DNA of 64,000 nt from Sulfurimonas hongkongensis (lineage in GTDB: Bacteria; Campylobacterota; Campylobacteria; Campylobacterales; Sulfurimonadaceae). The notes below the pieces were generated by a model, which did not search any database, had not been told where the DNA came from, and was given only the letters and a program-made list of their open reading frames with translations. Location of the stretch: NCBI RefSeq assembly GCF_000445475.1, contig NZ_AUPZ01000004.1, forward strand, positions 1 through 64,000, in the 5' to 3' direction. The position numbers and the translations under genes were made by a program. Each line of letters starts with the position of its first letter. Within the stretch, counting starts at the first letter, position 1. Shown here in pieces: positions 22,247 through 28,292 of the stretch.

Positions 22247-22819
22247 ATGTTAGATGACGTAGTTTTATCTCTTGCAAAAACAACGCTTTTGCACCATTTC
22301 TCTAAGAAAGAGGATCTAGATAAAGATGGACTCTTAAAGCAATACCCACAGCTTGCACAAAAGAGAGCCTCCTTTGTTACACTATATAAAAATGGCAATC
22401 TTCGTGGATGTATAGGTTCCATTATCGCTCACAGAACTCTTTATGATGATATAGTCTCAAATACCCTTATGAGTGCATTTAGAGATAGTAGGTTTTCACC
22501 GCTTCAAGAAGATGAACTAAGTGAGCTTAGTCTTGAAGTCTCAGTTTTAAGCGTCCCAGAAGAGTTAGAGTATAGCAGTTATGAAGAGCTTTTAAAGATG
22601 ATTACACCACATAAAGATGGACTTATCTTAGAGCACGATCACTACCATGGCACCTTTTTACCTCAAGTGTGGCAACAACTTCCAAAAACAGAAGACTTTT
22701 TAGAACATCTTAGTTTTAAAGCGGGTGCAAACCCTTCTATATATACGCAAAACCCAAAAATTTTAAAGTATAGAGTGGACGCTAAAGAGGCAAGGTTTGA
22801 CGAGATATCATTGCTATAA
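22247..22819 (+). CDS. AMMECR1-domain protein (AmmeMemoRadiSam system protein A)
   Basis: The 190-residue protein has the AMMECR1 core: ASFVTLYKNGNLRGCIGS around residues 43-60, where LRGCIG is the family hallmark, then FSPLQEDELSELSLEVSVLS and HHGTFLPQVW-like text (YHGTFLPQVWQQLP). The biochemical function is not established. It is followed 48 bp later by a MEMO1-family gene, matching the known A/B gene pair. The third member, a radical SAM protein, is not in this window. A GAGG ribosome site precedes the ATG. Confidence 0.88.
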   Translation: MLDDVVLSLAKTTLLHHFSKKEDLDKDGLLKQYPQLAQKRASFVTLYKNGNLRGCIGSIIAHRTLYDDIVSNTLMSAFRDSRFSPLQEDELSELSLEVSVLSVPEELEYSSYEELLKMITPHKDGLILEHDHYHGTFLPQVWQQLPKTEDFLEHLSFKAGANPSIYTQNPKILKYRVDAKEARFDEISLL

Positions 22820-22867
22820 AAGTGAAACTTTAATATAGTTTTTACAAAAGATTCTTAGGAGAGTAGT

Positions 22868-23650
22868 ATGAAACGAGAGATGAGTGTGGCTGGTACTTTT
22901 TACCCAAGAGAAGCAAGCGATATTTTAAGATATTTTGGCAGTTTTAGTGCTTTATTTAATAAAAAGTCTTCACTAATTAAAGCAAAAACAAGAGCAGTGA
23001 TAGTTCCTCATGCTGGATATGTCTTCTCAGGATACAGTGCAAATATTGCTTATAGAGTCTTAGCTAAAAGTAGCGTGAAAAATTTTGTAGTTATTGGACC
23101 ATCACATAGAGTTGCCTTTGATGGGGTGAGTATGTGCTTGGCATCAGAGTATCTAACTCCATTTGGTGCAATAGCAAAAAGTGAACTTATATATGAGTCC
23201 CTAGAGAAAAATTTTGGACTCAAAGAGATAATCACACATGCAGAACACTCAACTGAAGTGCAGTTTCCTTTTATAAAACACTACATAGAGGGTGCAAAGA
23301 TTGTTGAGTTAGTATATGGAAGCGTTGATCCTTCTGCTTTATCAGAGATTATAGATATGATATTAAGTTTAGAAGATTGTGGAGTTATTATTAGTACAGA
23401 TTTGAGCCATTTTTATAATGAGCAATATGCCAACGAGCTTGATAATGTCTGCTTAGAAGCTATTGAAAAACTTGATACTTTTCTTTTACATAAGGGTTGT
23501 GAGGCCTGTGGGATTTTGGGAGTTGAGGCTATGATGCTAAGTGCAAGGGCGCAAAAATTAAATCCTATCATACTTGACTATAGAACAAGTAGTGATGCTA
23601 GTGGAGATGAGAGTAGTGTTGTGGGTTATATGAGCGCTTGTTTTGTTTAG
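22868..23650 (+). CDS. MEMO1-family protein (AmmeMemoRadiSam system protein B)
   Basis: The 260 residues show the MEMO1 fold, related to class III extradiol dioxygenases. The metal-site histidines are visible in VPHAGYVFSG (H48), GPSHRVAFDG (H80) and a later STDLSHF segment. The EHSTEVQFPF motif and the CGILGVEAMM segment are also conserved. The human homologue binds iron or copper; the bacterial role is unknown. A GGAGAG ribosome site and a 48-bp gap place it in one unit with the AMMECR1 gene. Confidence 0.88.
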   Translation: MKREMSVAGTFYPREASDILRYFGSFSALFNKKSSLIKAKTRAVIVPHAGYVFSGYSANIAYRVLAKSSVKNFVVIGPSHRVAFDGVSMCLASEYLTPFGAIAKSELIYESLEKNFGLKEIITHAEHSTEVQFPFIKHYIEGAKIVELVYGSVDPSALSEIIDMILSLEDCGVIISTDLSHFYNEQYANELDNVCLEAIEKLDTFLLHKGCEACGILGVEAMMLSARAQKLNPIILDYRTSSDASGDESSVVGYMSACFV

Positions 23651-23808: not shown

Positions 23809-24561
23809 TTAACGCATCATTAAAACACCAGCAAATCTTCCAGTTATCTTAGAGGCTCTATAGGAGAAGTATTTGGTGTTCTTACAACAACTACACTCCT
23901 TGCTTATCTCGATATTTTGCTCTTTTATGCCAGACGCTAAGAGTTGGGACTTTAAAATCTTGCGAACATCTAAAAAAATAGCTCCATCTCTTTGCTCTAT
24001 TGCAAATCCGAGCCCTAATTCCTCTGCTTTTGTCTTAATCTCAAGCCCAATTTTATAACAACAAACACCTATGCTTGCTCCTATAGTTACAAAAATATCC
24101 CTTGCATCTGAGCCAAAATTGTGTTCAAAACTCTCAACTACATTTTTTACAATATTTCCAAATGCACCCTCCCTTCCTGCGTGAGCCACGGCTATAACTC
24201 TTCTTGATTTATCATAAAAAAGCAGAGGGTTACAGTCTGCTACCATAACCATAAGAGGGATATTTGTTTTGTCAGTTATGAGTGCATCACAAGTTGGAGG
24301 ATTTAAAAAATTATCTCCTGCATCTACAATATGGACTAAATTAGAGTGAATCTGTTTCATATGAACAAGCGTTTGTGTTTTGTAGTTTAGGAGAGTGGCT
24401 AAGATGTTATGGTTTTTTAAAACTGATTTTTCGTTGTCGCCTACATGAAAGGCTAGATTTAGTGAGTTAAATGGAGCTAGACTCACACCGCCATCTCTTG
24501 AGGAAAACGCATGAATGAGTTTTGCTTGGTTCTTTAATCTTGGGCTTTGATGAATTTTCAT
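23809..24561 (-). CDS. pgeF: Purine nucleoside phosphorylase / laccase-domain protein (YfiH, PgeF type)
   Basis: YfiH family proteins are purine nucleoside phosphorylases; some edit peptidoglycan precursors. The protein (250 residues from ATG 24561) has FSSRDGGVSLAPFNSLNLAFHVGD, the metal ligand segments MKQIHS and MVADCNPLLF, AVAHAGREGAFG, and GASIGVCCYKIG. A longer frame begins at TTG 24582, but it would run through a TATAAT sequence. The ATG has no clear ribosome site and the TATAAT ends only a few bases upstream, so the message may be leaderless or nearly so. It is divergent from ovoA. Confidence 0.87.
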   Translation of the reverse strand: MKIHQSPRLKNQAKLIHAFSSRDGGVSLAPFNSLNLAFHVGDNEKSVLKNHNILATLLNYKTQTLVHMKQIHSNLVHIVDAGDNFLNPPTCDALITDKTNIPLMVMVADCNPLLFYDKSRRVIAVAHAGREGAFGNIVKNVVESFEHNFGSDARDIFVTIGASIGVCCYKIGLEIKTKAEELGLGFAIEQRDGAIFLDVRKILKSQLLASGIKEQNIEISKECSCCKNTKYFSYRASKITGRFAGVLMMR

Positions 24562-24593: not shown

Positions 24594-26708
24594 TTGAATA
24601 ATACTAGCATATATCCTCCTACACTTGATGGAGAAAGTATAGAGAAAAAACGACAAGAAATAGTAGAATACTTTAACAACACTTATACTCTTTTTGAGAA
24701 AGTTTTTGAGACTCTTATGAGTGATGAAGTCTTTTATAAAAAGTCAGAACCCTCAAGACATCCAATGATATTTTATTTCGGACACACCGCTACTTTTTTC
24801 ATAAACAAACTAATACTTATGAAGATAATAGATAAAAGAGTAGATGCAAACTTTGAGTCCATCTTTGCAGTAGGCGTTGATGAGATGGCATGGGATGATG
24901 TTAATGCTAAAAACTATGCATGGCCAAAAGTTGATGAGGTAAGAGAGTATAGAGCAAAGGTAAAAGAGATAGTTAGTAAGCTTATTATGAATCTTGAGCT
25001 TGAACTTCCCATCAAACAAGACTCACCTATGTGGGTAATTCTTATGGGCATTGAGCATGAGAGGATTCATATAGAGACTTCACTCGTGCTTCACCGTCAG
25101 ATGCCGCTAGAGTTTGTTAAGTGTGTAGAAGAGTTTAATATCTGCTCGCATAGCTCACAAGCCCCAAAAAATGAGATGATAAAGATAGATAGCACTCATA
25201 TAAAACTAGGCAAAAGCACAACTCATAATCTTTATGGCTGGGATAATGAATATGGAGTTTATGAAGAAGAAGTTGGTAAGTTTAAGGCTTCAAAGTATCT
25301 TGTAAGTAACGCAGAGTTTATGGAATTTGTGCAAGATGGCGGTTATGAAAATGAGGAGTTTTGGGATGAAGAGGGGCTAGAGTATCTAAAAAGCTCAAAG
25401 GCAAAATATCCTGTTTTTTGGGTCTATGAAGATAGGGTTTATAGATACAGAGCTCTGTGCGAAGTTATAGATATGCCACTTGATTGGCCAGTTGATGTAA
25501 ATGCGTTAGAGGCTGAGGCGTTTTGTAGATACAAGAGTAAAAAAGATGGAGTCTCTTGTGTACTTCCTAGTGAGGCTGAGTATAGAGCCATTTATGAACA
25601 AACAAATATAGAGGATCTGCCAGCATTTCATCAAAGTAGGGCAAATCTTAACTTTTATCATTATGCTAGTTCTTGTCCTGTAAATGAGTTTGGCTTTCAC
25701 ACAAATAGTGGCGAATCTATCTACGATGTGGTGGGAAATGTTTGGCAGTGGAGTAGAACACCAATGAGGCCATTTGATGGCTTTGAAGTTCATGAGGCTT
25801 ATGATGACTTTACAGTTCCAACATTTGATGAAAAACATGCACTCATACTCGGTTCATCATGGGCTAGTAGTGGAAATCTTATAATGAAACACTCTCGCTA
25901 TGCCTTTAGAAAGCATTTCCCTCAAAATGCAGGTTTTAGATATGTTATCTCAAACAATCAAAATGAGAGCAAATCAGATATTTATGAGAGCGATGAATTA
26001 GTCTCACAGTATTGTGAATTTCAGTATGGAGATACTTATTTTGGAGTTAAAAACTTTGCAAAAGAGTGTGCAAAGATAGCAGTAGAGTTTAGTACTAACA
26101 AAACAAAAGCACTAGACTTAGGGTGTGCGACTACAAGGGCTAGTTTTGAGCTTGCAAAGGATTTTGATGAGGTTGAGGGTGTGGACTTCTCAGCCCGTTT
26201 TATTCAAGTAGGAGTGAGGTTAAAAGAGAGAGGATATATAGCCTTTGCATCTAAACTAGAGGGCGATTTAGTACAAAATAAAAAAGTAACCATACAAGAG
26301 TTGGGTTATGAAGATATTGCTCATAAAGTCTCTTTTTGGCAAGGAGATGCATGTAACCTCAAGCCAAATCTAAGCTCATACGACTTAGTGATGGCAACAA
26401 ACCTAATAGATAGACTCTACAACCCTAAACTATTTTTAGAAACTATTCACGAGAGACTAAACAGTGATGGCATCTTGATGATAACCTCTCCATATACTTG
26501 GCAAGAGAGTTCTACTCAAAAAGAGATGTGGCTTGGTGGTTTTGTAGATGCAAGTGGTAATGAAGTTAGAACTCTAGATAGTTTAAAAGAGATACTCAGT
26601 GAGCATTTTGATCTTGTACACCTTAGAGATATAGAGTTTGTGATAAAAGAGACAGCAAGAAAATTTCAACACACTATCTCACAATGTAGCATCTGGAAGA
26701 AGAAGTGA
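24594..26708 (+). CDS. ovoA: 5-histidylcysteine sulfoxide synthase / 5-thiohistidine N-methyltransferase OvoA
   Basis: OvoA joins the Cys sulfur to carbon 5 of His using iron and O2, and later methylates 5-thiohistidine to ovothiol A. From the TTG at 24594 the protein is 704 residues, the usual OvoA length. The N-terminal DinB-like domain carries the three iron histidines, H64 (YFGHTATFF) and H155/H159 in HERIHIE. An FGE-sulfatase domain spans about 210-470, with NVWQWSRTP and GSSWAS. The C-terminal methyltransferase starts near 490 (LDLGCATTRASF). Its presence separates OvoA from two-domain EgtB. A longer frame upstream overlaps pgeF and lacks a ribosome site. It overlaps ovoB by 4 bp. Confidence 0.92.
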   Translation: MNNTSIYPPTLDGESIEKKRQEIVEYFNNTYTLFEKVFETLMSDEVFYKKSEPSRHPMIFYFGHTATFFINKLILMKIIDKRVDANFESIFAVGVDEMAWDDVNAKNYAWPKVDEVREYRAKVKEIVSKLIMNLELELPIKQDSPMWVILMGIEHERIHIETSLVLHRQMPLEFVKCVEEFNICSHSSQAPKNEMIKIDSTHIKLGKSTTHNLYGWDNEYGVYEEEVGKFKASKYLVSNAEFMEFVQDGGYENEEFWDEEGLEYLKSSKAKYPVFWVYEDRVYRYRALCEVIDMPLDWPVDVNALEAEAFCRYKSKKDGVSCVLPSEAEYRAIYEQTNIEDLPAFHQSRANLNFYHYASSCPVNEFGFHTNSGESIYDVVGNVWQWSRTPMRPFDGFEVHEAYDDFTVPTFDEKHALILGSSWASSGNLIMKHSRYAFRKHFPQNAGFRYVISNNQNESKSDIYESDELVSQYCEFQYGDTYFGVKNFAKECAKIAVEFSTNKTKALDLGCATTRASFELAKDFDEVEGVDFSARFIQVGVRLKERGYIAFASKLEGDLVQNKKVTIQELGYEDIAHKVSFWQGDACNLKPNLSSYDLVMATNLIDRLYNPKLFLETIHERLNSDGILMITSPYTWQESSTQKEMWLGGFVDASGNEVRTLDSLKEILSEHFDLVHLRDIEFVIKETARKFQHTISQCSIWKKK

Positions 26709-27889
26709 AATACAACTTTAAAACACACGCAAGTAGAGAAGACTCTAAAGCTGAGAAGTATGTTCTAAGAGAGGAACTTTTTGGTACAAAGGATGTGCTT
26801 CCTGCTTGGGTTGCTGATATGAACATCAATACGCCAGAGTTTGTTTTAGATGCTGTAAAAGAGAGACTAGAACATCCTATCATCGGCTATCAGATGATGC
26901 CAGAGAGTGCTTTTGAAGCTCAAATAGAGTGGATGAAACGAGAGCATGGCATCTCTTATGAGTTAGAGGATTTGCTCTACTCTCACTCAGTCGTTGCATC
27001 TATGGATTTGGCAATAGATGCTTTTAGTGAAGTTGGCGATAAAGTTATAGTACAAACTCCAATCTATCCTCCCTTTTTAAGCAGTGTTAGAGAACAAAAA
27101 AGAGAAATTTTAAACAATCCTCTAAAGCAAGCCAGTGATGGAAGTTATGTTTTTGATATAGAAGATTTAAAAGAAAAGATAGATGAAAAGACTAAACTTT
27201 TGCTTCTTTGCTCACCTCATAATCCTGTTGGTAGAGTTTGGAGACGAGAGGAGTTAGAAGAGATTTTAGAACTATGCTTAGAACACAACATCGTAGTCTT
27301 TAGTGATGAAATTCACTCAGACTTAGTCTATGCACCAAATAAACACATCCCCTTTGCATCTCTAAGTCAAAAGGCAAGAGATATAACAATAACAGCTATA
27401 GGAGTTGGAAAAACTTTTAATATGGCTGGGTTTGCTATAAGTAGTATAGCTATAGGAGGTAAGGCTTTAAGAGAGAGATTTTTACAAAGCTATAAGAAAG
27501 TTCATTTTGCACAAGGAAGTGTTTTGTCTCATACAGCTTTTGAAGCTGCTTATAGAGAGGGCAGAGAGTGGCTAGAGGAGTTAAAAGTTCATCTTTGGAG
27601 CAACTATGAGCTACTTGTAGAGGTTTGTAAAAAACATAACAATACTATAAAGGTCACACCCATAGAAGCAACTTATCTTGCATGGCTTGATTGTAAAGGC
27701 TTAGGGCTTAGCAACAGAGGCATAAAAGATTTTTTTATTAAAGATGCAAAGTTAGGGCTTAATACTGGGCTTAGTTTTTCAAAAGAGGGAAGCGGCTTTA
27801 TGAGGCTAAACTTTGGAGTGAGTCGTGATGAGATGCAAGAGATTGTCAAAAGACTTGATGGGGCTTTGTCAAAGTTTAATCATGAGTGA
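26705..27889 (+). CDS. ovoB: PLP-dependent C-S lyase of the MalY/PatB family, probable OvoB
   Basis: OvoB cleaves the sulfoxide made by OvoA to release 5-thiohistidine, which OvoA then methylates. The 394-residue protein is a fold-type I aminotransferase-like lyase with LPAWVADMNINTPEFV, YGYQ-like IIGYQMMPES, CSPHNPVGRVW, SDEIHSDLVY, and the PLP lysine in GVGKTFNMAG. These fit MalY/PatB C-S lyases. The start overlaps ovoA (ATGA), so the two are coupled. The OvoB role rests mainly on this coupling; without it the call would be cystathionine beta-lyase. Confidence 0.85.
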   Translation: MKYNFKTHASREDSKAEKYVLREELFGTKDVLPAWVADMNINTPEFVLDAVKERLEHPIIGYQMMPESAFEAQIEWMKREHGISYELEDLLYSHSVVASMDLAIDAFSEVGDKVIVQTPIYPPFLSSVREQKREILNNPLKQASDGSYVFDIEDLKEKIDEKTKLLLLCSPHNPVGRVWRREELEEILELCLEHNIVVFSDEIHSDLVYAPNKHIPFASLSQKARDITITAIGVGKTFNMAGFAISSIAIGGKALRERFLQSYKKVHFAQGSVLSHTAFEAAYREGREWLEELKVHLWSNYELLVEVCKKHNNTIKVTPIEATYLAWLDCKGLGLSNRGIKDFFIKDAKLGLNTGLSFSKEGSGFMRLNFGVSRDEMQEIVKRLDGALSKFNHE

Positions 27890-28292
27890 TTTAGAAAAAA
27901 TAGAGTCTTTTATAAGTAAGCATCATGCTCTAAGTTTAGCTACCTCTGATGGCGATGAGCTTAGTGTTTGTAGTCTCTTTTATATCTATGATGGACTAAC
28001 ATTTGTAGTAGCAAGTAGCGAGGATACCACACATATAAAACATATCAAAAAAAACCAAAATGTTGCTGGAAATATTCTTTTAGAGACAAAAGAAGTAGGT
28101 AAGATACAAGGTCTGCAGTTTAGAGGAGTCTTTAGAACTCTTGGAGATGAGAAACTAAAAAAACTCTACTTTAAGAGATTTCCATATGCACTTGCAATGA
28201 GAGCAAAGCTTTACAAGATTGAAGTTAAATATTTTAAACTAACTGACAATAGGTTAGGTTTTGGTAAGAAGATTATTTGGAAGGAGCCTTAA
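27882..28292 (+). CDS. Pyridoxamine 5'-phosphate oxidase-like flavoprotein (YhbP type)
   Basis: The 136-residue protein from ATG 27882 starts MSDLEKIESFISKHHALSLATSDGD and has the split-barrel pattern of FMN-binding PNPOx-like proteins (GLTFVVASSEDTTHIKHIKKN; GLQFRGVFRTL). No family member of this size makes PLP itself; most are small flavin or heme binding oxidoreductases of unknown substrate. The ATG overlaps the ovoB stop by 8 bp, so it is a third coupled gene of the ovothiol unit. A redox partner for ovothiol is an attractive guess, not shown. Its 3' end overlaps the opposite-strand small gene by 20 bp. Confidence 0.78.
   Translation: MSDLEKIESFISKHHALSLATSDGDELSVCSLFYIYDGLTFVVASSEDTTHIKHIKKNQNVAGNILLETKEVGKIQGLQFRGVFRTLGDEKLKKLYFKRFPYALAMRAKLYKIEVKYFKLTDNRLGFGKKIIWKEP

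Follow-up and report, generated by a model that had tools for sequence, protein, structure and literature searches.

A probable ovothiol A operon in Sulfurimonas hongkongensis and the distribution of its genes among the Campylobacterota

Two overlapping genes at positions 24594 to 27889 of the window, the 64,000-nucleotide stretch of DNA analysed here, encode an OvoA-family protein and a PatB-type lyase, and they raise the question of which small molecule the two enzymes make and what part it plays in the cell. The pair is very probably an ovothiol A operon. This reading is based on the families of both proteins, their conserved active-site residues, the overlap of the genes, their co-occurrence in the phylum, and the selection acting on each half of OvoA; from it we infer which reactions take place, what is made, and that the product serves as a low-molecular-weight thiol. 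In the first step the N-terminal half of OvoA, which depends on iron, would use O2 to couple the sulfur of cysteine to histidine at C5, forming a sulfoxide. The PLP lyase would convert this sulfoxide to 5-thiohistidine, pyruvate and ammonia, and the SAM-dependent C-terminal half of OvoA would methylate the ring, giving ovothiol A, a histidine derivative that contains sulfur and is strongly reducing. The features of the locus are as follows.

23809..24561, - strand: pgeF, divergent, upstream border of the operon (TIGR00726, 176.9 bits; start taken at an internal ATG)
24594..26708, + strand: ovoA, TTG start, 704 aa, with the synthase at residues ~8-451 and the methyltransferase at ~464-704 (TIGR04344, TIGR04345, 8khq)
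24783..24785, + strand: codon of H64, iron ligand in a GHT motif (119-genome alignment and a ligand list in PMC4768315)
25056..25070, + strand: HERIH codons, with iron ligands H155 and H159 (119-genome alignment and PMC4768315)
25800..25802, + strand: codon of active-site Tyr403, matched by position to EgtB Tyr377
26112..26141, + strand: SAM motif I of the methyltransferase, LDLGCATTRA, with Thr514 (alignment)
26705..27889, + strand: patB-type PLP C-S lyase, proposed OvoB, GTG start, 394 aa (TIGR04350; invariant PLP-site residues; model match to 5z0q)
27882..28292, + strand: PNPOx-fold (YhbP-like) gene, ATG start (PF01243 and NF002900 scores; link to the pathway unproven)

The ovoA and patB genes overlap by four bases, GTGA, the GTG start of patB lying within the end of ovoA, and the YhbP-like gene begins eight bases before the end of patB. 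A gap of 32 bases separates ovoA from the divergent pgeF upstream. The region has eight promoter-like sites, fewer than the shuffle mean of 13.3, and three terminator-like sites, close to the shuffle mean of 2.1. The YhbP-like gene scores 29.6 bits with PF01243 (cut-off 28.1) and 106.8 bits with NF002900, under the cut-off of 176. It occupies the same place in most family f1 genomes that have linked ovoA and patB, and was seen near ovoA in no other family. Because its place is kept only in family f1, alongside the unrelated dut, it looks like a case of shared gene order, and we rejected it as a pathway enzyme. Genes for AmmeMemoRadiSam proteins A and B (TIGR04335, TIGR04336) adjoin one another at window positions 22247-23650, just before pgeF.

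The iron ligands and Y403 were mapped by motif and spacing from H74, H169, H173 and Y442 of PlOvoA as listed in PMC4768315. Across the 119 OvoA-bearing genomes, H64 and H155 are each His in 118 (one gap each), and H159 and Y403 are invariant. With a mean pLDDT of 66, the predicted model of OvoA is of low confidence, and only entry titles and rough fold matches were taken from it.

To place the pair in its phylum, we used a sample of 397 Campylobacterota genomes. TIGR04344 has matches in 125 of these and its cut-off is passed in 119; 48 of the 119 belong to the window's family (51 genomes sampled), and 29 to its genus (31 sampled). One relative with a recorded strain, Sulfurimonas indica NW8N (locus L040), carries both ovoA and patB, and in genome G056 ovoA is in two pieces with an internal stop. 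By per-genome counts from E-values read by eye, PatB is over its cut-off in all 119 genomes with OvoA versus 74 of the 278 without (193 of 397 in total; Fisher p 4e-50). In 59 of the 119 genomes patB comes after ovoA at a distance of no more than 300 bases, and in 8 more it lies within 6 kb. It was not seen near ovoA in the other 52, so the linkage is not universal; some of these loci stop at a contig end, as in G391. In a named set of 80 loci, the two genes are adjacent in 63, separated in 11, and patB was not seen in 6, of which 4 have less than 1.2 kb of contig left. Among 1749 neighbouring genes at the 119 loci, the PatB lyase is the sole clear operon partner of ovoA that is kept across families.

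Is the synthase truly an OvoA, and the lyase truly its partner? The former passes the models for both halves of OvoA, with 651.6 bits for TIGR04344 (N-terminal half, cut-off 400) and 326.7 bits for TIGR04345 (C-terminal half, cut-off 170). EgtB-type (ergothioneine) and SenA-type (selenoneine) enzymes belong to the same superfamily, the protein aligns well to EgtB-IV structures, and both models give weaker matches, but these fall far under their cut-offs (TIGR03440, 164.5 bits against 360; NF041186, 153.7 bits against 420). The best solved chain is that of OvoA_Th2 (8khq), at 838 bits, and EgtB-IV comes next at 339 bits. An OvoM-type methyltransferase is fused to the synthase, and no second EgtB-like synthase was seen in the genome, the single PF03781 protein found there being this OvoA. 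An EgtB or SenA identity is thus extremely improbable. The lyase passes the PatB model TIGR04350 with 525.8 bits (cut-off 340), and its predicted model, which is fair (pLDDT 83), matches OvoB 5z0q with a Z score of 44.1 and an rmsd of 2.1 over 368 residues at 35% identity; the two results together class it as a PLP fold type I beta-lyase. K236, D201, N173 and R367, which we take to be its PLP-site residues, are invariant in 26 aligned sequences. It might instead be a general cystathionine or cysteine-conjugate beta-lyase that happens to lie beside ovoA: by sequence it does not side with known OvoB over other PatB lyases, its solved relatives being a C. difficile putative transferase and B. subtilis PatB (6qp3) at 304 bits and OvoB 5z0q at 229 bits, and PatB is also found in genomes without OvoA. 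Weighing against this are its adjacency to ovoA in several families and its presence in every OvoA-bearing genome, and OvoB itself is described, in a statement in PMC12631010, as a beta-lyase of broad specificity. We consider the general lyase unlikely and take the protein to be a PatB lyase that works as OvoB, a name that rests on context, position and co-occurrence, since by sequence B. subtilis PatB is a nearer relative than 5z0q. A preliminary description, made from the DNA letters, had placed an overlapping OvoA and lyase at 24594-27889, given OvoA three iron histidines and a fused methyltransferase, and called the two proteins the known ovothiol enzymes. The coordinates and overlap, the OvoA features and the PatB-type lyase are all borne out, and only the equation of the lyase with OvoB has to be stated more cautiously. 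That description had also held that clustering with EgtB would speak against it; by the scores above, the protein sides with OvoA by a wide margin.

A further alternative concerns the last step: methylation might be impaired in the clade, so that the operon would yield 5-thiohistidine or some other derivative in place of ovothiol A. The methyltransferase half matches OvoM of Sulfuricurvum at 301 bits and OvoA_Th2 at 274 bits. Its SAM motif I has Thr514 at a position that is Gly in 109 of the 110 aligned methyltransferase-bearing genomes with a residue there. A search for the motif in the named set found the site in 78 of 80 loci (2 gave no match), with Gly in 76, Thr in L002 and Ala in L003. 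The first of these exceptions, a Sulfurimonas MAG, is the nearest named relative by OvoA, at 90% identity. Thr514 is thus more likely to be a trait of the clade than an error of sequencing, and in place of a nearly invariant Gly it could lower methylation; relatives, moreover, repeatedly shrink or lose this domain. On the other side, the domain is full length in the window, and no other column of at least 97% conservation deviates in either half of OvoA. The dN/dS of the methyltransferase half relative to L002 is 0.049, below the 0.093 of the synthase half (both by a simple counting method); both halves are under purifying selection with respect to this nearest relative, the methyltransferase half strongly. 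On these grounds, together with the occurrence of Thr514 in the nearest relative, we rejected a dead methyltransferase as the leading view, and impaired methylation in the clade appears very unlikely. Ovothiol A remains the product that we favor.

The fate of the methyltransferase half in relatives was followed by the number of residues after the GFRYV motif, with at least 215 residues counted as full, a threshold of our own. By this measure the half is full in 99 of the 119 OvoA genomes, shrunken in 12 and nearly absent in 8 (20 eroded in all); the outgroup paralogue, in which it is absent too, is left out of the count. In a TIGR04345 scan of ten proteins, eight shrunken halves scored 68-156 bits, all below the cut-off of 170, one protein without the half gave no match, and L172, whose 230 residues count as full, scored 186 bits. 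Mapped on a tree of the synthase half, which was built by a quick method with one long outgroup and leaves the placement of the long-branched L192 unsure, erosion requires eight changes, or seven without G391, whose in-frame gap sits at a contig end; at least five are forced by well-supported branches. A separate OvoM is over the cut-off in 3 of the 20 eroded genomes (G176, G389 and G298), and G391 passes by way of its own gapped OvoA; others, such as G361, have neither the methyltransferase half nor a separate OvoM over the cut-off. In group f1/g5 (L166, L169, L174, L176, L179, L181, L193 and L195), patB adjoins an OvoA without a methyltransferase half, and a separate OvoM is over the cut-off in just two of the eight genomes, G176 and G389. 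The absence of this domain from some OvoA-like proteins was noted earlier, in section 3.6 of a 2022 review (PMC9103826), and a separate OvoM of Sulfuricurvum is in the PDB, so we regard the erosion as an extension of what is known and not as a discovery. Its repetition suggests that there are natural producers of unmethylated 5-thiohistidine among the relatives.

The closest known system is OvoA_Th2 (8khq), which the entry title, taken together with the title of a reference, assigns to Hydrogenimonas thermophila, a campylobacterotan. It has the same two domains, its match extends over residues 21-727 of the 728-aa frame, and the structural alignment gives 49% identity over 660 residues; it differs from the window protein in having Gly in SAM motif I and in coming from another family of the same phylum. 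OvoM of Sulfuricurvum sp. STB_99 (9bxl, 9bxm and 9bxn) is 52-53% identical to the methyltransferase half in the window, but it is a separate protein, with a chain of 273 aa, that is not fused to a synthase. OvoB 5z0q is likewise a PLP lyase of the same fold, as noted above, although it is outscored by B. subtilis PatB. The EgtB-IV structures (8vig and 8vih) share the synthase fold and have alignable iron histidines, whereas they lack a methyltransferase half and, by entry title, act on hercynine. Section 3.6 of PMC9103826 describes OvoA and OvoB as widespread in Proteobacteria and two of the species as anaerobic; the statement on anaerobes cites two papers, of which one deals with the strict anaerobe Sulfurimonas hongkongensis. 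Our literature search for ovothiol in epsilonproteobacteria had no match, and that for Sulfurimonas with ovothiol returned a review only. The operon is a correct reading but an ordinary one, since OvoA_Th2 and OvoM of the Campylobacterota have already been solved and OvoA occurs in nearly all genomes of the genus. What this analysis adds is the presence of OvoA in 119 of 397 genomes, always with PatB, versus a clear GshB in 13, together with a genome in which no glutathione pathway was detected; it also adds the erosion of the methyltransferase half in 20 of 119 genomes and the split ovoA-patB junction.

The host genome comprises 2.3 Mb in 28 contigs and is 100% complete by the figure of the tool used. 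It encodes SoxB (798 bits), NapA (1337 bits) and two COX1-family oxidases, the last of which indicate that the host can probably use O2. The preliminary description had supposed a sulfur-oxidising campylobacterotan that is exposed to O2 and nitrogen oxides during this oxidation. The host is indeed a Sulfurimonas, and SoxB, the two oxidases and the periplasmic nitrate reductase agree with both parts of that sketch. At C13:104367-106973 of genome G000, a NapA-family match contains an in-frame TGA, perhaps as in a selenocysteine-containing formate dehydrogenase.

The glutamate-cysteine ligase families PF04107 and PF04262 have no match in the genome, in searches whose controls worked; PF08886 has none either, but its controls were silent too and this is no evidence of absence. 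PF02955 (GshB) is over its cut-off in 141 of the 397 genomes; the scores listed separate into a high set of 13, none below 158 bits, and a remainder that does not exceed 80 bits. The match of the window's own genome (78 bits), tried as a GshB, is RimK (NF007764, 357 bits, cut-off 331). Eleven of the 13 genomes with a clear GshB also have OvoA (Fisher p 5e-5), and the two pathways are therefore not mutually exclusive. By these searches the window's cell seems to be without glutathione, and may rely on ovothiol as its principal small thiol. The counts of OvoA and clear GshB also bring up a wider proposal, that 5-thiohistidines replace glutathione as the main low-molecular-weight thiol here and in many other Campylobacterota, in the form of ovothiol A or, in members that have lost the methyltransferase, of unmethylated 5-thiohistidine; we offer it tentatively, as a possibility that we doubt somewhat more than we believe. 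A passage in the 2009 genome paper on Nautilia profundicola (PMC2628731) reports no recognisable thiol pathway, and 5-thiohistidines would, if the proposal is true, fill that gap for members that bear ovoA. Ordinary by itself, the operon becomes, in a genome with no glutathione pathway detected, a testable candidate for the source of the main thiol of a large sulfur-oxidising group, and relatives with recorded strains, such as S. indica NW8N, are open to assay.

The junction between ovoA and patB is an insertion point, often split by restriction-modification and phage-type genes. Gaps of more than 600 bases occur at this junction in 7 of 28 loci of genus g1, compared with 1 of 26 for patB-yhbP and 0 of 23 for yhbP-dut, and in the named loci, a set that overlaps the first in some loci, in 11 of 74, 1 of 56 and 1 of 40, respectively. 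The split junctions are those of L005, L008, L012, L015, L019, L022, L026, L042, L063, L065 and L079, with further cases in L114, L125, L129, L131, L147, L150 and L168. Among the cargo scanned are a type IIG restriction enzyme (L079), type II methyltransferases and a restriction endonuclease (L012 and L042), KilA-N (L008), ORF6N (L015) and a match to the candidate defence family PDC-S05 (L019).

Two other loci stand apart. L003 is a 3.5 kb contig binned as Aliarcobacter whose OvoA is 80% identical to that of the window, which points to either misbinning or transfer. Genome G234 has a second OvoA-like protein (L200:3241-5576) of 457 aa, at 355 bits against the cut-off of 400, whose gene overlaps one for an ATP-grasp ligase related to cyanophycin synthetase and GshAB. 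A search of 41 genomes found this ligase in G234 alone, and the pair might conjugate a thiohistidine.
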